Below, piece by piece: positions 26,198 to 39,635 of a stretch of DNA of 39,635 bases (positions are counted from its first letter, which is position 1; each line of letters opens with the position of its first letter). Origin of the DNA: Desulfobulbaceae bacterium (GTDB taxonomy: Bacteria; Desulfobacterota; Desulfobulbia; Desulfobulbales; Desulfocapsaceae). The translations under genes were made by a program, and so were the position numbers. The stretch lies in assembly GCA_019163335.1 (NCBI GenBank), contig JAFLKM010000069.1, forward strand, positions 1 through 39,635, written 5' to 3'. The notes under the pieces were generated by a model. It ran no database searches, had not been told where the DNA came from, and saw only the letters and a list, made by a program, of their open reading frames with translations.

Positions 26198-28480
26198 TTA
26201 CAGGTTGATTTCCTTCAGGAGCTTTTCCGCTTCAGCCTGCTCAGGAAAATTTTCCTTTGATGCCAGTGCCCTGTTTAACTCGATTTTGGCTTGATCCTTC
26301 TGCCCGTCTGCGACCAGGGCAAGGGCGAGATGATAGCGCAGCGTGGCAAGCTCAGGTGCTTTTTCGGTGGCCATGGCAAACTGGGTGAGAGCCAGTTTAT
26401 GGGAACCTCGTTTATAATGGATCCACCCCAGGGTATCGGCGATAAAAGGGTCTTCGGGAAATGCCTCCTTGGCCATAAGCGATAGACGCAAGGCCTCGCC
26501 GAGGTCCGGTTCCGGACTTTTGGCAATCAGCCATGCGAGATTGTTGGCGGCGGCGGCGAATTTTGGACGAAGTGTAAGAGCTTTTTCATAAGCCGCTTTC
26601 GCACCAACGGCATCGCCACTTTGATCGAGAAGAGTACCCAAAGCCATATAGCCCTTAACATCGGAGGGATTTTTCTCAACAAGCGCCTTGTACTCTTTAA
26701 TAGCCTCTTCATTTTTCCCCATGCGAACCAAAAGAATAGAAATCGCACTATACACGCGGGGAGAATCAGGGGAAATCTCCTGAGCCTGTCGTAAAAGCTT
26801 CAGCGCCTCATCCGGTGATGAATTATATTTCTCAAGAATTCCGGCCAGTAACAGATAATAATCAAGATTTTTTGGCGATTCCTGCAGATGCTTTCTAACC
26901 AGAGCAATTGCCTGGTCAACCTTTTTATCCTGAATCAAGATACCGCTCATGGCGACCAGCGCCGGTGTGAAGTCCGACTTTATAGTCAGAATCTTTTCAA
27001 AGGCAGCGGCTGCCTTTTGCATATCCTTTTGAGCCAGACAGGCGACTGCCTTATTATACAAAATTTCGATATTGTTCGGCGCCTGAGCTTCCATTTCAGT
27101 GAACAATCTCACCGCATCGTCTGTTTTCCCCAGCGCCAGAAGCGATTTCCCAAGAATAATTGCCGCCCGAAAATTACTTGGTGCAACCTGCAATACCATG
27201 ATGGCATCTTTCCTGGCAGCCTCAAAATCTCGTTTCAAGAACAGATGATGAGCCATCAGGGTTCGTGCGTCAGGATCATAGGGCGCAAGCTTCAACGCCT
27301 GATCAACCGCATTAAAGGAAAGCTCCGTTTCCTCCTTATTGAGATGCGCGACCCCTTTCAGATAAAAGGCCTCTCCCCAACGCGGAACATCCCGGACCAA
27401 GCGATCAAGAATAACCAAGGCCTCATTGTTTTTCTGATCCCGAATCAGCAATTTAGCCTGTACAAGACTTGCCATGGGATGCTGTGCATTATTTGTCAAA
27501 ACCGGCGCGACTTCCTGGGCGGCAAGGTCATACTTCCCGGTGTCATAATAAAAATTCGCCAGGATCGCCTTATTATCATCCGGTTTTGCTGATTTGCCAA
27601 TGGCATCCCGGTAGGCCTTCTCCGCCTTTTCAAGATTTCTGGTTTTATAATAAAAATTAGCCAGCATTAAATAAAACTCAGCAGAATCCGGCTTTTTCTC
27701 AATCGCTATGAGGATATTTTTCTCAGCCGCCTCCACATCCCCTTTTTTCATATAAAACATCCCCAGATCTATATATGACTCAGGAGCGTCCGGTTTCTTG
27801 GCCTGTAATTCCAGAAGAATCTGCTCTGCCTCCTTCTCTTTTTTCTGGCCTAGATAAAAGGCAACCAGGGCTTTAAAATTATTGGGAACAGGATCAAGCT
27901 CGATGGCTTTTTTCAAAGCCGTCTCCGCCTCGCTGATCTGATTCAAGACACTCAGGATGCGCCCATGAATAATATAATAGCGCCCCACCTCCGGTTTCAG
28001 CTGGATGGCTCGCACGATGGCCTTCTGTGCCTCCGCGCTATGGCCTTCCGCCAACTCAATCTGGGCAAGCAGGGCGTAAGCATCAGGGAAGTCCTTGTTA
28101 ACATCAAGGATGGCCATGGCCCGTGCCCGGCTTTCCTTCAATTTTTTCCCGAGGAAATTGAGCTCGGCTACTTTAATCAGGGCATCGACATTATTTGGGT
28201 CAAGGCTTGCCGCCCGCTCCAGCTCTTTAAAAGCCTCACCCGCCTGATTCGTTTTCAGGAAGGCAAGTCCCAGCTGATAGCGGGCCTCCGCATATTTAGG
28301 ATCAATCTGAACTGCATTTCGAAATTCAACAATGGCCGCCTTTTCATTATTGGCAGCAATATATTCCATGCCTTTTTTATAATGGCCGGCCTTTTTTTCT
28401 GCGTCAGAAGCACAACCACTCATCGAGAGTAGAAAAAAACAAACACACAGACAGGAGAAAAATCTGCTGAAATAATTCAT
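26198..28480 (-). CDS. prsT: PEP-CTERM/XrtA system TPR-repeat lipoprotein PrsT
   Basis: 760 residues from ATG 28480, which has GGAG 7 nt upstream; a GTG at 28492 extends the frame by four residues. A lipoprotein signal ends in SMSGC with Cys23 as the acylation site. The rest is a continuous array of tetratricopeptide repeats (about 20 helix pairs) from residue 30 to the end, e.g. AAIVEFRNAVQIDPKYAEARYQLG. This length and layout match PrsT, the large TPR lipoprotein conserved near XrtA exosortase genes; its exact role is not established, assembly of exported polymer or protein being likely. It is divergent from the Wza-like export gene across a 160-bp A+T-rich region. Confidence 0.88.
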   Translation of the reverse strand: MNYFSRFFSCLCVCFFLLSMSGCASDAEKKAGHYKKGMEYIAANNEKAAIVEFRNAVQIDPKYAEARYQLGLAFLKTNQAGEAFKELERAASLDPNNVDALIKVAELNFLGKKLKESRARAMAILDVNKDFPDAYALLAQIELAEGHSAEAQKAIVRAIQLKPEVGRYYIIHGRILSVLNQISEAETALKKAIELDPVPNNFKALVAFYLGQKKEKEAEQILLELQAKKPDAPESYIDLGMFYMKKGDVEAAEKNILIAIEKKPDSAEFYLMLANFYYKTRNLEKAEKAYRDAIGKSAKPDDNKAILANFYYDTGKYDLAAQEVAPVLTNNAQHPMASLVQAKLLIRDQKNNEALVILDRLVRDVPRWGEAFYLKGVAHLNKEETELSFNAVDQALKLAPYDPDARTLMAHHLFLKRDFEAARKDAIMVLQVAPSNFRAAIILGKSLLALGKTDDAVRLFTEMEAQAPNNIEILYNKAVACLAQKDMQKAAAAFEKILTIKSDFTPALVAMSGILIQDKKVDQAIALVRKHLQESPKNLDYYLLLAGILEKYNSSPDEALKLLRQAQEISPDSPRVYSAISILLVRMGKNEEAIKEYKALVEKNPSDVKGYMALGTLLDQSGDAVGAKAAYEKALTLRPKFAAAANNLAWLIAKSPEPDLGEALRLSLMAKEAFPEDPFIADTLGWIHYKRGSHKLALTQFAMATEKAPELATLRYHLALALVADGQKDQAKIELNRALASKENFPEQAEAEKLLKEINL

Positions 28481-28642
28481 AATGAACTCCACTCATTAAA
28501 TAAAAAAGAGAAAACACAAAAATAATCTACTTTTAATATACTAATTTTATAAATTATCATATAGTTTGCTTGTTATCCTTTCATAAGACAAGAAAAAAAA
28601 CTCATCTTACTATGATATTATTTTCTAAAACTGAGGTGTCAA

Positions 28643-33970: not shown

Positions 33971-35485
33971 ATGCAGGACATACAATTAACATCCACCCAA
34001 CAAGAAGTTTCCAGGCTGTCGCACAACAGTAAGATGCTGTTCGACCTCTTCCCGGACATGCTTTTGATCATTAAAGATGATTTCGTCATCGAGCAAATGA
34101 ACACGGCTGCCAAAGCTAAACTTGGCGAAGTGCAGGGACGCAAATGTTATCAGGTCATCATGGGCCTTGCAAATCCTTGCGAGACCTCTCTTTGCCCATT
34201 TTCCTGTATGATTGGCGACAAACAATGCGGAAAGGTTTTAGAGAGAAAACTCCATGATAATTTCTATGTGGAGTACACCTATGTTCCCTTTGAGGGATAT
34301 CGTCAGGACAAGCTTATTCTTGTTGTCCTCCGCGACATTACCCAAAAGAAGCTGCACGAGTTGGAACTTGAAAAGTACAGCACTGATATCGAAAAGATCC
34401 TCCGCGAAAAAATTTCCGTTTTAACGGCAACAGAACAAGAACGACAGCAGTTATCCACTGAGATTAATTATCTCAAGAAAGAGACCGAGCGCCTTGGCGA
34501 CCGCGATAAAATGATCGGGGAAAGCAACCACGTCCGAGTCCTTCGCGAAACGATTTACCAGGTCGCCGAATCAAACGCCACCATCCTTATCACCGGTGAA
34601 TCCGGCACAGGCAAGGAACTGATCGCCGACCTGATCTACAAACACAGCAGCAAAAAGAAAAGAAGGTATCTCAAATTCAACTGTGCTGCTGTCTCTGAAA
34701 GTTTGCTTGAAAGCGAACTGTTCGGTTATGAAAAAGGAGCCTTCACCGGGGCCTCATCAGTCAAAAAAGGGAAATTCGAAGAGGCAGATGGCGGCACTAT
34801 CTTCCTTGATGAAATCGGTGACATAAGCCCCAAGATGCAGTCTTCGTTGTTGCGGGTACTTCAGAACGGTGAAATCCTGCGTGTAGGATCCAATCATCCC
34901 ATTGCCATCAATGTCAGAATTATTGCCGCGACAAATATCAACCTTGCCGAGGCCGTGAAGAAAGGTCAGTACCGGGAAGATCTCTACTATCGATTGAACG
35001 TTATCAACCTGCACCAGGTCCCTCTGCGCGAGCGAAAAGAAGATATCATCCTCCTTGCCACCAACTTTCTCATAAAATACCGGGAACGGTTTAACAAAGA
35101 AGTCTCGTTCCTTCCCAACAGTGTGGTAGAGAAATTGCTGGCCTATGATTGGCCCGGCAACGTGCGTGAGCTGGAAAATGTCATTCAACGGGCCGTACTG
35201 CTCTCAAGAAATGGGATGATTACCCCCAAAAGCCTGGATATCACCCTCAAGAAGCCAACCCCGCTTCTGGATAGTGACAATCCAACCTCTCCCATGGACA
35301 AGTTCCTCAACCTTCCCCTCAAAAAGAGCATCTCTCTCTTTGAAGCAGAGCTCATTTCCACAACCCTGAAAAAATGCTCGGGAAAGACAGATAACGTTTC
35401 TGAGCAGCTCGGCGTTGCCAAAACAACGCTTTACGAAAAAATGAAGCGATACGGAATTACGTCTAAGATTTGGATGGACAGATGA
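33971..35485 (+). CDS. Sigma-54-dependent transcriptional activator (PAS-AAA+-Fis)
   Basis: 504 residues. A PAS domain at about 20-130 contains a cysteine-rich loop (RKCYQVIMGLANPCETSLCPFSC). A coiled coil spans about 135-190. The AAA+ domain follows: Walker A GESGTGKE from residue 209, the sigma-54 contact GAFTGA from residue 256, Walker B IFLDEIGD with Asp280, and the arginine-finger region REDLYYRLN. A Fis-type HTH is at the C-terminus (NVSEQLGVAKTTLYEKMKRYGI). Unlike PrsR, the activator often linked to XrtA loci, it has no receiver domain. It is the likely regulator of the -24/-12 promoters of the PilZ and PEP-CTERM genes downstream. No strong ribosome-binding site is seen before this ATG. 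Confidence 0.9.
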   Translation: MQDIQLTSTQQEVSRLSHNSKMLFDLFPDMLLIIKDDFVIEQMNTAAKAKLGEVQGRKCYQVIMGLANPCETSLCPFSCMIGDKQCGKVLERKLHDNFYVEYTYVPFEGYRQDKLILVVLRDITQKKLHELELEKYSTDIEKILREKISVLTATEQERQQLSTEINYLKKETERLGDRDKMIGESNHVRVLRETIYQVAESNATILITGESGTGKELIADLIYKHSSKKKRRYLKFNCAAVSESLLESELFGYEKGAFTGASSVKKGKFEEADGGTIFLDEIGDISPKMQSSLLRVLQNGEILRVGSNHPIAINVRIIAATNINLAEAVKKGQYREDLYYRLNVINLHQVPLRERKEDIILLATNFLIKYRERFNKEVSFLPNSVVEKLLAYDWPGNVRELENVIQRAVLLSRNGMITPKSLDITLKKPTPLLDSDNPTSPMDKFLNLPLKKSISLFEAELISTTLKKCSGKTDNVSEQLGVAKTTLYEKMKRYGITSKIWMDR

Positions 35486-35491
35486 TCTCAT

Positions 35492-35507
35492 TGGTCTATT
35501 TATTGCA
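35492..35507 (+). promoter_or_regulatory. Possible sigma-54 promoter of the PilZ gene
   Basis: TGGTCTATTTATTGCA has GG and GC exactly 12 bp apart and a consensus TTGCA -12 box; the -24 box (TGGTCT) deviates from TGGCAC. Predicted start of transcription is near 35518, giving a leader of about 55 nt. Confidence 0.45.
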
Positions 35508-35572: not shown

Positions 35573-36118
35573 ATGGGAACATCAACTGACAAAGTGCCAG
35601 AGAAATGCATTTACTTATTAAAAGAAATGCAGGCATGCACCCTTCGACCCGACGGCGTGTACATCCCACCACGGATGCACCTGCTGACATATTGTCAGAT
35701 CGGTAATTATCTTAATTGCCCAACGTACGAAAAATATTGCCCAATGGAAACCCAGACCATGAAAAAAGAGATGCAGGAACATGGAGGAAGGCGGCGTTTT
35801 TTGCGTATCCCCAAGAAGCACAAGGTCTTAATCCAGACCTGTGATTCTATTGGCACGGTGATCGGCTCTTTTTCTGAGCAGGCGTTGACTCTGGATTACA
35901 GCCAAGGAGGAATGCGCATCCAGCTGGATAGCCAAATTCCAGCCGACAGCCTCCTTCGATTCGATTTTGGCAATGATTTTGTCGTGCCCCAACTGCAGGG
36001 AATCGCCAAGCTCTGCTGGCACCGAAAAACCGATACCAGCCCCCAGGGCATGGAGGCCGGCCTGATCTTCAAAGATCATTTCAGCCAGGCCGTGCTCGCT
36101 GTGCAGACGGAGCAATAA
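35573..36118 (+). CDS. PilZ-domain c-di-GMP-binding protein with N-terminal cysteine cluster
   Basis: 181 residues. The PilZ domain (about 73-178) has both ligand motifs: RRFLR (Arg74-x3-Arg78) and DYSQGG (Asp108-x-Ser110-x2-Gly113). The first 60 residues contain five cysteines (12, 22, 41, 49, 56), the last three spaced C-x7-C-x6-C, suggesting a zinc or iron-sulfur binding site. It could sense c-di-GMP and link it to exopolysaccharide output. AGGGA lies 6 nt before the ATG, and a -24/-12-like promoter lies about 65-80 bp upstream. It is followed by several hairpins before the convergent PEP-CTERM gene. Confidence 0.85.
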   Translation: MGTSTDKVPEKCIYLLKEMQACTLRPDGVYIPPRMHLLTYCQIGNYLNCPTYEKYCPMETQTMKKEMQEHGGRRRFLRIPKKHKVLIQTCDSIGTVIGSFSEQALTLDYSQGGMRIQLDSQIPADSLLRFDFGNDFVVPQLQGIAKLCWHRKTDTSPQGMEAGLIFKDHFSQAVLAVQTEQ

Positions 36119-36299: not shown

Positions 36300-36332
36300 T
36301 GACCTGATCGGGCTCTTAGCCCGATCAGGTCA
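36300..36332. repeat. Perfect 14-bp inverted repeat downstream of the PEP-CTERM gene
   Basis: TGACCTGATCGGGC (36300-36313) and GCCCGATCAGGTCA (36319-36332) with a 5-nt loop. A very stable hairpin just after the stop codon; without a T-run on either side it may protect the 3' end of the mRNA or act with the adjoining terminator. Confidence 0.7.
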
Positions 36333-36353: not shown

Positions 36354-37073
36354 TTATTTCTTTATACGGCGACGCACAGCACCAGCCAAGGCGGTCAAAC
36401 CGGTACCAAACAACAGCATGGTAGCTGGCTCAGGAACGGGGGTAACTTCTGCTTTGATATAAATACGGTCATCAACATTGGCACCAAAATTATTTTCTGA
36501 CCAAATCCACATAGCATCAGCACCTATGCCTGTAATGGCTTGGCTTCCATTACCATCCCACCAGATTGATTTACCATTAACAGTTGGTCCATCCCCAACG
36601 AGAGGATTTACAAGAGATCCATCACCATTCTTGGCATATTCAGTAACCGTTACCCAATCCCAATCTGAAAAATTATCAGTATCTTCGTAAGATTTGTCTT
36701 TAATAGCATATTGCCAAGTTACATTACTGTATAATGGAGCAGCAGCTCCAAAATTAATTTGCCCCAGAAACCCAGCAGGATTTGAGGTTGACCCATCTCC
36801 AGAATTGTCTACATCCCAAACCATCTGAAATGTTTTTCCAACTTCAAGATTTAAAATTGCACTATCAGCTAATTTCCAGTCGTTATAATGAGTAAGAGCC
36901 GCGATATTTACTGTAGTTGCGAGAGCAGCTTCTTTCTGAATGTACCATGTATTCAAAATATTATCCGCCGTGAAAGTAGCGGTTACATTGATTGATGTGG
37001 CCATAGCACTTCCTGCTACCAAACCAACCCCTGCCATTGCCAACAAAGCACCTGTTAAAATTGTCTTTTTCAT
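36354..37073 (-). CDS. PEP-CTERM sorting-domain protein (first substrate)
   Basis: 239 residues. A Sec signal peptide (MKKTILTGALLAMAGVGLVAG, cleavage near SAMA, residue 25) is followed by a secreted domain rich in Asp, Asn, Trp and Thr with no recognised fold. The sorting tail is complete: VPEPATMLLFGTG (PEP at 214-216), a hydrophobic segment, and the basic end RRRIKK. Exosortase is expected to cleave near the PEP motif and pass the protein to the cell surface or polymer. AGGAG lies 9 nt before the ATG. A -24/-12-like sequence lies about 95-110 bp upstream. Confidence 0.92.
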   Translation of the reverse strand: MKKTILTGALLAMAGVGLVAGSAMATSINVTATFTADNILNTWYIQKEAALATTVNIAALTHYNDWKLADSAILNLEVGKTFQMVWDVDNSGDGSTSNPAGFLGQINFGAAAPLYSNVTWQYAIKDKSYEDTDNFSDWDWVTVTEYAKNGDGSLVNPLVGDGPTVNGKSIWWDGNGSQAITGIGADAMWIWSENNFGANVDDRIYIKAEVTPVPEPATMLLFGTGLTALAGAVRRRIKK

Positions 37074-37167: not shown

Positions 37168-37183
37168 TACAAATATCATGCCA
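37168..37183 (-). promoter_or_regulatory. Sigma-54-like promoter facing the first PEP-CTERM gene
   Basis: On the minus strand TGGCATGATATTTGTA; it differs from the right-facing promoter TGGCATAATATTTGCA at only two positions. The -12 dinucleotide is GT instead of GC, so activity is uncertain. Predicted leader about 80 nt. Confidence 0.5.
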
Positions 37184-37302: not shown

Positions 37303-37535
37303 AAAATATCCTTCCCTCCTCCCATTCCCTTGAAAAAACCGTTAAACCAACCAGAAATTTCCCGATTTCCGGAAGGATCAACCGCAAAAAAACAGAAAAA
37401 CAAATAACACATTGAAATTACGCTTCTTATTTATTCCTGTTTTCCAGAATAAAATTTCGGAAACCCGTAAAAGCTAAAAAAAACGAGGGAAAAAGGGGCT
37501 GAAAAAACGAAAAATGGAAGCTGATTTATTTATTG

Positions 37536-37578
37536 TTAACCTCAAAAGGGATTTAATCGTCCCAAACTGAATATTTAA
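37536..37578 (+). promoter_or_regulatory. 43-bp element, copy a (possible enhancer of sigma-54 promoter 1)
   Basis: Starts TTAACCTCAAAAGGGA and contains the dyad GGGA-N8-TCCC. It matches the copy at 37700-37742 in 38 of 43 positions by my alignment. It ends 68 bp before promoter 1. Confidence 0.6.
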
Positions 37579-37646
37579 AGTAAAAAAAAGTACGAATTAT
37601 TTTCCCAAGGATTACTTTGAATTTTCCACAACAAGAAACATGGCGC

Positions 37647-37662
37647 TGGCATAATATTTGCA
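37647..37662 (+). promoter_or_regulatory. Sigma-54 promoter 1 of the second PEP-CTERM gene
   Basis: TGGCATAATATTTGCA: GG and GC are 12 bp apart, with TGGCA and TTGCA boxes, close to the sigma-54 consensus TGGCAC-N5-TTGCW. Transcription would begin near 37674 and pass through the second 43-bp element. Confidence 0.7.
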
Positions 37663-37699
37663 TTCAATTCAGCCAAAAAAAAGGACCTAATTTGTTCTA

Positions 37700-37742
37700 T
37701 TAACCTCATAAGGGATTTTATCGTCCCAAACTGGATAGTTAT
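37700..37742 (+). promoter_or_regulatory. 43-bp element, copy b (possible enhancer of sigma-54 promoter 2)
   Basis: Starts TTAACCTCATAAGGGA, with the same GGGA-N8-TCCC dyad followed by AAACTGGATAG. It ends 49 bp before promoter 2, with its centre about 100 bp upstream of the predicted start, a usual enhancer distance. Confidence 0.6.
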
Positions 37743-37791
37743 GCTTTTCGTTTGAATAAAAATCCCGACGCCAACACATCCCATCTCGTAA

Positions 37792-37807
37792 TGGCATGAA
37801 TGTTGCT
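37792..37807 (+). promoter_or_regulatory. Sigma-54 promoter 2 of the second PEP-CTERM gene
   Basis: TGGCATGAATGTTGCT with correct 12-bp GG/GC spacing. Transcription would start near 37819, giving a leader of about 60 nt before the ATG at 37882. Confidence 0.7.
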
Positions 37808-37881: not shown

Positions 37882-38724
37882 ATGAAAAATCGTCAGCTGA
37901 AATTCATCCCGGCGGCACTGGCCGTTGCCTCTGTTGGCACTCTTCTCTTGAGTGCAGGCATCGCCTCTGCAACCGCCTACGGCACTAACATTACGCGATT
38001 TGATGGTGTTGTTTCAAATCCTACTGGCATAGCCCCTCTTTATGAAGACAACGAAGTAGAACCGGGGATGGCAACAGGCCAATTCTGGGATCTGGAAGGC
38101 TTTTTCCTTAAAAAAAGTACAAAAACCGAACTGACCATTGTTAGTGGCTATAATTTTTATACCGGATATGACAACATAAAGGCTGGTGATGTCTTTATAG
38201 ACACCAATGGCGATGTTGTCATCTCACCAGATTCCATCGTCGGTCCATACAACGGCTACGACAATGTTTCAAACAAACTCTTTCGTTATGAGTACGTTCT
38301 GGATGTTAACTGGGTAGCAGGGACATTCGACATCATACAACTTAGCAATAGCTCCCTACTTAAAATCGGCAAATATGGTGATGATTATAACTTGCCATCT
38401 AATCCCTGGATATATCTCAATGGTGGGACTGATGTTGGTGGTGGTACCTTCACCCGTTACGATATGGCATCACAAAATCAGGTTGCTGCAGGAACAGGCC
38501 TACAAGGATGGGATGGTAATAACAACCATTTCGTCGCCACCTTTGACATTTCCACTATTGACCTCAGAAATGGTGGCTTGTTTCACAATACGATGGAATG
38601 TGGCAATGACAACCTGATCGGCAAGGTTGCTCCAGTGCCAGAGCCGGCCACCATGCTTCTCTTCGGCACCGGTATTGCCGGGCTTGTAGGCTCAATGCGT
38701 CGGCGGAAGCTGAACAAGAAATAA
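37882..38724 (+). CDS. PEP-CTERM sorting-domain protein (second substrate)
   Basis: 280 residues from ATG 37882, preceded by AAGGAG at 7 nt; the frame stays open to a TTG at 37828 but the signal peptide starts here. The signal peptide runs to about residue 30 (cleavage after GIASA). The secreted domain is rich in Asn, Gly, Tyr and Asp and is of unknown fold. The tail VPEPATMLLFGTG (PEP at 253-255), a hydrophobic segment and RRRKLNKK is nearly the same as in the divergent gene, so the same exosortase should process both. Cysteine is almost absent. Two tandem sigma-54 promoters precede it and a strong terminator follows. Confidence 0.92.
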   Translation: MKNRQLKFIPAALAVASVGTLLLSAGIASATAYGTNITRFDGVVSNPTGIAPLYEDNEVEPGMATGQFWDLEGFFLKKSTKTELTIVSGYNFYTGYDNIKAGDVFIDTNGDVVISPDSIVGPYNGYDNVSNKLFRYEYVLDVNWVAGTFDIIQLSNSSLLKIGKYGDDYNLPSNPWIYLNGGTDVGGGTFTRYDMASQNQVAAGTGLQGWDGNNNHFVATFDISTIDLRNGGLFHNTMECGNDNLIGKVAPVPEPATMLLFGTGIAGLVGSMRRRKLNKK

Positions 38725-38939: not shown

Positions 38940-39470
38940 TCATGCAAGTACCTTCCCCACATCCCGCCAGGCAAGAAGTCGGGCAGTAGAACGCTGTTGC
39001 GATGTCTCGCCACCGTAAACGACCACATTGTCAATATTCAGAGACAGGCCTGCCTCCTGGACTCTTTCGGCTAACCGTTCAAAACCTTTGAAAAAATCAG
39101 CGGCGGCCGTAGCTCCGGATTTGACTTCAACCGCATGCAGATTGTTACCGCGTTGAGACAGGACATCTATTTCCAGCCCCCAACTTTCGCGGTAATGATG
39201 AAGAATCGGCTGCTCTCCTGCATGGGCCAGCGTTTTATACATTTCCGACACCACCCAGCTTTCAAAAATAGCGCCGCGCAAAGGGTGTTGCCGCAGTTGC
39301 CCGGGCTCCCTGATCTGCAACAGGGCGCAGATCAGGGAGCTGTCCAGAAAATGGAGCCTGGGAGCTTTGACGACCTGCTTCCGGACATTGACAGGCCAGG
39401 CCGGCAACCGATGGACAATATAGCTCGCCTCCAGAATCGACAACCACGATCTGGCGGTATTGTGGAAATC
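38940..39470 (-). pseudogene. C-terminal remnant of a DUF4143-type AAA ATPase
   Basis: The readable part (HNTARSWLSILEASYIVHRL, then LRGAIFESWVVSEMYK, YRESWGLEIDVL, and EVKSGAT) is the DUF4143 domain found at the C-terminus of AAA_14 ATPases. The PD-(D/E)xK-like pattern E-x-D...E-x-K is visible. The N-terminal ATPase half (about 200 residues) is absent. Upstream of residue HNTAR the frame stays open to a stop at about 39592 but no longer resembles the family. The first internal ATG is at 39443, so a 167-residue product could be made, but it would lack the ATPase. Confidence 0.7.
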
Positions 39471-39635
39471 ATGATGAAATCTTCTTTTGATAAATTGACA
39501 ATCAACTTTAACCCGTTGGAAATGGCTGAAAAAAATTGCTTTGAGCTGCTTGATTTTACTGCCCAGGATGCTTTGCCGTTATAACCTGAAAGTCGGATAA
39601 AGCGTACACTATTTGGTGTCCACCCCCAAGTACTT

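Follow-up and report, generated by a model that had tools for sequence, protein, structure and literature searches.

Two short, nearly identical DNA elements each stand before a -24/-12 promoter upstream of a PEP-CTERM gene on contig C28 of a bacterial genome of 3.2 Mb in 103 contigs (G000), which raises the question of what, if anything, these elements contribute to the expression of that gene. The contig was analysed over its whole length of 39.6 kb, here called the window. In many environmental bacteria the extracellular matrix is built with the help of PEP-CTERM proteins and exosortase. A sequence-only reading of this DNA had taken the elements for enhancers, duplicated together with their promoters as one module, through which a nearby sigma-54 activator might define its regulon. 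The account that we put forward, and that we consider reasonably probable as a whole, consists of two sigma-54 promoters (P1 and P2), an enhancer made of dyads, the adjacent activator acting on these dyads, and elements that are remnants of a repeat.

The locus and its two probable promoters

The upstream part of the window is an exopolysaccharide/XrtA-type cluster encoding relatives of chain-length, export, tyrosine-kinase and ATPase proteins, mostly under the curated cut-offs, with PrsT over its own. Past this cluster follow the sigma-54 activator, a PilZ-like gene and two PEP-CTERM genes, the first reading leftward and the second rightward. The features needed below are:

26198-28492, minus strand: PrsT (TIGR02917), 352.4 bits, cut-off 312.2
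33971-35485, plus strand: sigma-54 activator gene (PF00158, HTH_8), its 3' end 2.05 kb before element copy 1
35492-35507, plus strand: possible -24/-12 site TGGTCTATTTATTGCA between the activator and PilZ-like genes, 2 mismatches
35573-36118, plus strand: PilZ-like gene adjoining the activator gene, PilZ 22.1 bits, just below the cut-off of 22.5
36354-37073, minus strand: divergent (leftward) PEP-CTERM gene (PF07589, TIGR02595)
37168-37183, minus strand: near-consensus sigma-54 site TGGCATGATATTTGTA of the divergent gene, weak, with GT for the -12 GC
37536-37577, plus strand: element copy 1, 42 nt, left hairpin arm lost, R2 match (see below) at E 5.8e-6
37647-37662, plus strand: P1, exact -24/-12 site TGGCATAATATTTGCA
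37700-37741, plus strand: element copy 2, 42 nt, R2 match at 37697-37741, E 5.4e-8
37792-37807, plus strand: P2, exact -24/-12 site TGGCATGAATGTTGCT
37882-38724, plus strand: rightward PEP-CTERM gene (PF07589, 29.5 bits, cut-off 20.7; TIGR02595)

The sequence-only reading had rightly placed a sigma-54 activator gene 2 kb from the elements; it did not mention the divergent neighbour as a PEP-CTERM gene. Directly past this leftward gene lies a perfect 15-nt inverted repeat with a 3-nt loop (36300-36332), likely a terminator, and at the contig end two overlapping reading frames occupy the minus strand (38940-39634).

The exact pattern TGGCAYN5TTGCW occurs 20 times in G000, P1 and P2 included, against 3 occurrences of a reversed control pattern, and with only 20 exact sites in 3.2 Mb, two within 145 bp are far beyond chance. 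The ortholog of the rightward gene in genome G088 (59% identical over 282 residues of the product) keeps P2 in all 16 bases and at the same 90-nt distance to the start codon; upstream similarity between the two genomes starts at P2, and the element is absent there. This evidence from conservation concerns P2. Two other genomes, G077 and G076, contain, in this order, the activator gene, the PilZ-like gene, an exact -24/-12 site and a PEP-CTERM gene, and the element is absent from this locus in both. P1 and P2 are probably real promoters, and we infer that they drive the rightward PEP-CTERM gene. The earlier proposal of sigma-54 control of this gene through two promoters is supported. A -24/-12 site with at most one mismatch was also found at the position between the activator and PilZ-like genes in 12 of 29 relatives' loci.

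Origin of the repeated element

The pairing described by the sequence-only reading was recovered, two copies of the element standing with two exact -24/-12 sites before the PEP-CTERM gene. The copies are 42 nt long, 90% identical and 164 nt apart from start to start (direct repeat D1), both carry the GGGA-N8-TCCC dyad that had been reported, and the gap from the end of the element to the promoter is 69 nt for P1 and 50 nt for P2. The proposal that element and promoter were duplicated together fared differently. A global alignment of the spacers that follow copies 1 and 2 scored -12.5 (gapped identity 45.9%) against a shuffled mean of -6.9, and 273 of 300 shuffles aligned at least as well as the real spacers. 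A tandem segmental duplication, or a duplicated enhancer-promoter module, was therefore rejected: the spacers align no better than shuffled DNA, so that no duplicated module is visible, and the promoters did not travel with the element as a recognizable unit.

Across G000, a 24-nt core of the element (up to 3 mismatches) was found only in the two window copies, and the element as a strict regulon marker was discarded. A looser search detected related sequences in G077 and on contig C7; two further loose matches, in G035 and G068, fall within long open frames and seem fortuitous. A model built from four repeat copies, both window copies among them (R1), matched 18 times in G000 and 10 times in G077 at E <= 1 (window copies counted), and in the other 15 genomes of the genus 0 to 5 times, at E 0.2 or more, with none or one match in 10 of these 15. 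Behind the strong R1 matches is a dispersed repeat: its hairpin reads CCCCCTCTT-AACCTC-AAGAGGGGG, and part of the copies continue into the tail CTTTATCGTCCCAAGCTGGATAGTTA. Many copies are paired with a second hairpin, TCCTCCCCTTAGGTTAAGGGGAGG, as inverted or tandem units, two of the tandem units being 78% and 87% identical; position between genes was judged for part of the copies. Short GC-rich hairpins in many copies, arranged as inverted pairs and tandem units, are the anatomy from which we take the family to be REP/BIME-like.

A second model (R2) was built, to escape circularity, from seven tail-bearing copies outside the window. It found both window copies, and on this ground the element would be a degenerate copy of the dispersed hairpin repeat. 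The window copies differ from REP/BIME elements in that a hairpin arm is lost: the family itself is a dispersed multi-copy hairpin, but one full repeat copy folds as a strong hairpin (z -3.74) while window copies 1 and 2 gave no stable fold (z -1.1 and -1.0). A riboswitch or other known RNA was likewise rejected, all Rfam matches being sub-threshold and none lying on the element. Applied to 46 other loci, R2 matched only the 8 that had been fetched for the repeat itself; it found no copy in the 18 other exact sigma-54 loci (0/18) and none in 20 other PEP-CTERM loci scanned, a set that left out L012, L015-L017, L323, L324 and L328-L330. The sequence-only reading had suggested a genome search for elements that co-occur with -24/-12 sites; none of the seven tail-bearing copies outside the window has such a site within 300 bp downstream on the same strand, with up to 3 mismatches allowed and GG and GC required. 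This largely matches the outcome that the same reading had named as telling against its proposal, an element occurring elsewhere without -24/-12 sites. These absences speak against the 43-bp element as an enhancer. It is, as far as its sequence relationships tell, very probably a worn piece of a genome-dispersed repeat, and the two elements are probably bystanders beside the promoters. A worn dispersed repeat beside good promoters can be mistaken for an enhancer.

Some features of the two copies nonetheless favour a function. Each lies 50-69 nt before an exact -24/-12 site, within the 32-92 nt at which PEP-CTERM motif 1 is placed before motif 2 in the original description (PMC1569441); the copies are 90% alike although the intervening DNA has fully diverged, as under selection; and both carry changes that are missing from the other repeat copies, AAGGGATTT in place of GAGGGGGCTTT. 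On this evidence the activator might bind the element itself, and the duplication would have taken in site and promoter alike. We regard this as quite improbable: the scan of other sigma-54 and PEP-CTERM loci found no copy, and the matching loci of G077, G076 and G088 have none either; the repeat to which the element is homologous shows no promoter at its seven other tail-bearing copies; and 42 nt is long for a single activator site. The common AAGGGATTT-for-GAGGGGGCTTT changes suggest that one window copy may derive from the other.

An exaptation, in which former repeat copies now help, for instance by offering an additional site, by bending the DNA or as part of the leader of the P1 transcript, is unlikely, if less so. 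The copies have the same orientation, a similar placement before each promoter and a shared derived form, and copy 2 would fall in the 5' untranslated part of a transcript from P1; they lack a stable RNA fold, however (z about -1), and nothing comparable occurs in the relatives examined. Against our preferred account, that of worn repeat copies which came to lie around P1, stands the fact that two copies of a rare element each lie 50-69 nt before a promoter, a coincidence that it leaves unexplained.

Eight repeat copies lie on one strand of contig C7 (963-10534, L196), 0.7-2.4 kb apart, in a region that resembles a cassette island, where the toxins RelE and BrnT and a GNAT protein are among the products of the small genes. 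This spacing among RelE, BrnT and GNAT genes would suit an integron attC site, with the 164-bp interval of the window as a tiny cassette, and so would the integron integrases that score over the curated cut-off in 9 of the 17 genomes of this genus. Such an origin is highly improbable, as G000 has no integron integrase over the cut-off (best TIGR02249 match 85 bits against 265, in an assembly of 103 contigs where one could be missed), many repeat copies form inverted pairs with the second hairpin in BIME fashion, and attC-like paired boxes were not seen on inspection by eye. G077 contains an integron integrase fragment with an internal stop (C6:237835). Two repeat copies on contig C13 of G000 also have neighbours of note. 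About 1 kb from the copy at C13:58163, on the opposite strand, is a PEP-CTERM-like gene (L013, 19.5 bits, under the cut-off); upstream of the copy at C13:54989, on the other strand, a sequence resembles a -24/-12 site with 3 mismatches.

Candidate enhancer and adjacent activator

A likelier enhancer than the 43-bp element, judged on motif matches, is the dyad TTTYCGGAAAACCGGAAA. A matrix made from seven sites before four other genes of G000, with the window left out, has its three best matches in the whole 39.6-kb window clustered at 37358-37471, between the divergent PEP-CTERM genes:

37358-37375, minus strand: dyad 1, CTTCCGGAAATCGGGAAA, score 20.4, the window's best, reached in 0 of 100 intergenic shuffles
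37433-37450, minus strand: dyad 2, ATTCTGGAAAACAGGAAT, score 18.5
37454-37471, plus strand: dyad 3, ATTTCGGAAACCCGTAAA, score 17.2

In 153.6 kb of background (the first 36 kb of the window, repeat loci and other sigma-54 loci), one match scored at least 17 and five at least 14. The three dyads lie about 320-430 bp from P2, the usual distance being mostly 110-290 bp. Discovery sites came from G000, and the matrix was tested on the window, G077, G076, G080, G088, G073-G075, L046 and a comparison across the bacterial family. All six PEP-CTERM genes examined in G077 have a dyad of at least 14 within 550 bp (5/6 within 450 bp), and the same six also have a -24/-12 site with at most 2 mismatches. 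A dyad of this score also precedes 2/2 PEP-CTERM genes in G080 and 1/3 in G076, with 0/5 in G088 and 0/3 in G073-G075; the scan covered 450 bp in G088 and G073-G075 and also about 530-680 bp in G077, G076 and G080. The gene sets were partial (6 of 9 PEP-CTERM matches in G077, 3 of 6 in G076 and 5 of 7 in G088). Among the other exact sigma-54 loci of G000, 2/18 have a dyad of at least 12.5 within 450 bp, near the background expectation. In one of the two (G000:C23:10516, L027) the dyad scores 16.5 and lies about 119 bp before the exact sigma-54 site; the gene that follows encodes a GGDEF protein (diguanylate cyclase, 148.9 bits) and is a possible further regulon member.

The form with an A4 centre is more specific than the loose one, with 10 sites in G000 at up to 2 mismatches: five lie before PEP-CTERM genes used for discovery, two in coding DNA, two before a gene ending PIPGAV... 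and one before a large autotransporter-like frame. The PIPGAV-ending gene, absent from the PF07589 list, was read as PEP-CTERM-like from its C-terminus. In most other genomes of the genus, counts of the A4-centre dyad were low and near the control. The loose dyad TTTYCGGNNNNCCGRAAA numbered 15 against a control of 2 in G000, 11 against 2 in G078 (without the activator) and 10 against 7 in G076 (with it), so that its counts per genome do not track the activator; many of its matches fall inside predicted reading frames. Two dyads and a weak -24/-12 site also lie before a 2336-residue frame with an autotransporter-like end at G000:C31:6255 (L248, L331).

The activator combines an N-terminal PAS-like region (PAS_9 23.3, under the curated cut-off of 27), an AAA+ domain with GAFTGA (PF00158, 234.4 bits) and a Fis-type HTH (PF02954, 29.4 bits, cut-off 22), with no receiver domain among its Pfam matches. 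Relatives at E <= 1e-120 were found in 38 of 93 genomes of the bacterial family, and the 29 loci compared here are the best-scoring of 39 matches in these 38 genomes, some of them from close relatives and hence not independent. A PilZ-like gene follows the activator gene in 24 of the 29 by eye (two contigs end too early), and 6/6 relatives' neighbours tested by HMM, five of them from other genera, were over the PilZ cut-off. The protein encoded beside the activator is probably c-di-GMP-binding. Identity to the window's activator is 95% in G077, 73% in G076 and 64% in L046, a locus on a contig titled Desulfobacteraceae; there a dyad of 22.2 lies directly past the PilZ-like gene, in the position that the PEP-CTERM gene occupies in G077 and G076.

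A dyad reached by at most 1 of 100 shuffles precedes the activator gene itself in 20 of the 29 loci, at 99-218 bp before the start (125-145 bp in 14 of the 20), an indication that the dyad is the target of the adjacent one-component activator. In an alignment of 13 chosen upstream regions the dyad (TTTTCG...GGAA) is the best-conserved block, followed by TATA, and this block of dyad and TATA is seen upstream of the activator genes in L136-L161. The arrangement suggests that the activator may regulate itself through a non-sigma-54 promoter. The activator genes of the window, G077, G076 and L046 have no upstream dyad, and the evidence for self-regulation thus rests on relatives 44-50% identical.

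Across the family, 26 genomes were compared with one PEP-CTERM gene each, G000, G077, G080 and one contig-end locus of G059 being left out. Dyad scores at PEP-CTERM promoters were higher in the 15 activator-positive than in the 11 activator-negative genomes (one-sided Mann-Whitney p 0.0037), of which three negatives (G088, G074 and G075) had already been seen in the earlier dyad scan; at a fixed cut of 14 the difference (6/15 against 1/11, p 0.09) was not significant. Sites of the -24/-12 type were present in 11/15 against 2/11 (one-sided Fisher p 0.0077). Several start codons in this comparison were guessed, the L303 frame seems wrong and the L295 upstream region is short; shuffles here and for the activator upstream regions were mononucleotide. 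The link between activator and dyad is weakened by G076, which has the activator but few dyads, and by the counts of the loose dyad given above.

The dyads might instead be an enhancer bound by a different sigma-54 activator of G000, a genome in which TIGR02915 finds 20 matches at E <= 1e-60, the window activator included. G080 points the same way: both of its PEP-CTERM genes have dyads, yet no close activator was found there at E <= 1e-120, nor one in the 19-kb stretches around these genes. We think this rather unlikely, given the dyads before the activator's own gene in 20/29 relatives' loci, the synteny in G000, G077, G076 and L046, and the association of activator and dyad across genomes.

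Under the account with the adjacent activator, the rightward PEP-CTERM surface-protein gene would be transcribed from the tandem promoters P1 and P2, with the three TTTYCGGAAAACCGGAAA-type dyads at 37358-37471 as their enhancer. The one-component PAS-like/AAA+/Fis protein (33971-35485), responding to whatever signal it may sense, would bind the dyads, loop to sigma-54 RNA polymerase and open the promoters; its PEP-CTERM regulon may include the PilZ-like neighbour. Of the regulon proposed by the sequence-only reading, a role for the nearby activator is thus retained, with the dyad TTTYCGGAAAACCGGAAA favoured over the element as its site.

Relation to known PEP-CTERM control

Control of PEP-CTERM genes by -24/-12 promoters has precedents. 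Haft et al. (2006) described an enhancer motif that is 'sometimes repeated' together with -24/-12 sites before PEP-CTERM genes (PMC1569441). Motif 1 comprises 17 nt ending TTTACA, followed by a spacer of 62.8 +- 10.6 nt and the -24/-12 motif; the pair was found at 99 of 167 proteobacterial PEP-CTERM genes, and PrsR was proposed as the activator (PMC1569441). The paired element had been called new by the sequence-only reading: motif and activator here do differ from that 2006 description, but a repeated enhancer motif with -24/-12 sites before PEP-CTERM genes was already known from it. The window resembles the PrsK/PrsR/PrsT system of that paper in its two exact -24/-12 sites (motif 2) and in the presence of PrsT. 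No TTTACA occurs on the plus strand of 37531-37800, the criterion being only the 3' end of motif 1 as the text gives it, and motif 1 at P1 and P2 was rejected accordingly. The dyad here is TTTCCGG-N4-CCGGAAA, mostly 110-290 bp before the promoter, whereas motif 1 lies at about 63 nt; and the activator is a one-component protein, whereas PrsR is a response regulator (PMC1569441). Against the PrsR model TIGR02915 the window activator scored 315.8 bits, under the cut-off of 502.6, and is thus not PrsR; no gene of G000 is over this cut-off, the best of the 20 matches reaching 416.7.

Aquincola tertiaricarbonis belongs to the Betaproteobacteria. Its PEP-CTERM gene pepA depends on RpoN; the -24/-12 start has been mapped, and the predicted enhancer sequence stands upstream (PMC9850573). 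The genome of this host has PrsK/PrsR, whereas G000 has no gene over the PrsR cut-off.

The activators of PEP-CTERM genes described in the papers found, PrsR (PMC1569441) and DVUA0057 (PMC3333781), are response regulators. A search of open-licence PubMed Central papers, with subscription journals and supplements outside its scope, returned no description of the present activator family or of the dyad. We lean, with modest confidence and on comparative grounds, towards a PrsK/PrsR-independent control of PEP-CTERM genes, in which a PilZ-tied family of one-component PAS-like activators would read TTTYCGGAAAACCGGAAA, with dyads also before its own gene in many relatives, and would govern a biofilm-matrix regulon across the bacterial family, the diguanylate cyclase of L027 being a possible member. 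If this is true, a second activator family with its own motif would make the PEP-CTERM regulon predictable in genomes without PrsR, and c-di-GMP would be a possible input to PEP-CTERM control.

DVUA0057 of Desulfovibrio vulgaris is a two-component response regulator with a predicted motif (PMC3333781, PMC4641369); DAP-chip located its binding upstream of PEP-CTERM genes, in an exopolysaccharide setting (PMC3333781). The window activator is likewise of the sigma-54 type and stands in an exopolysaccharide/PEP-CTERM context; its one-component make-up sets it apart. As no gene of G000 is over the PrsR cut-off and no TTTACA lies near P1 or P2, the window looks like a variant of the known sigma-54 control of PEP-CTERM genes.
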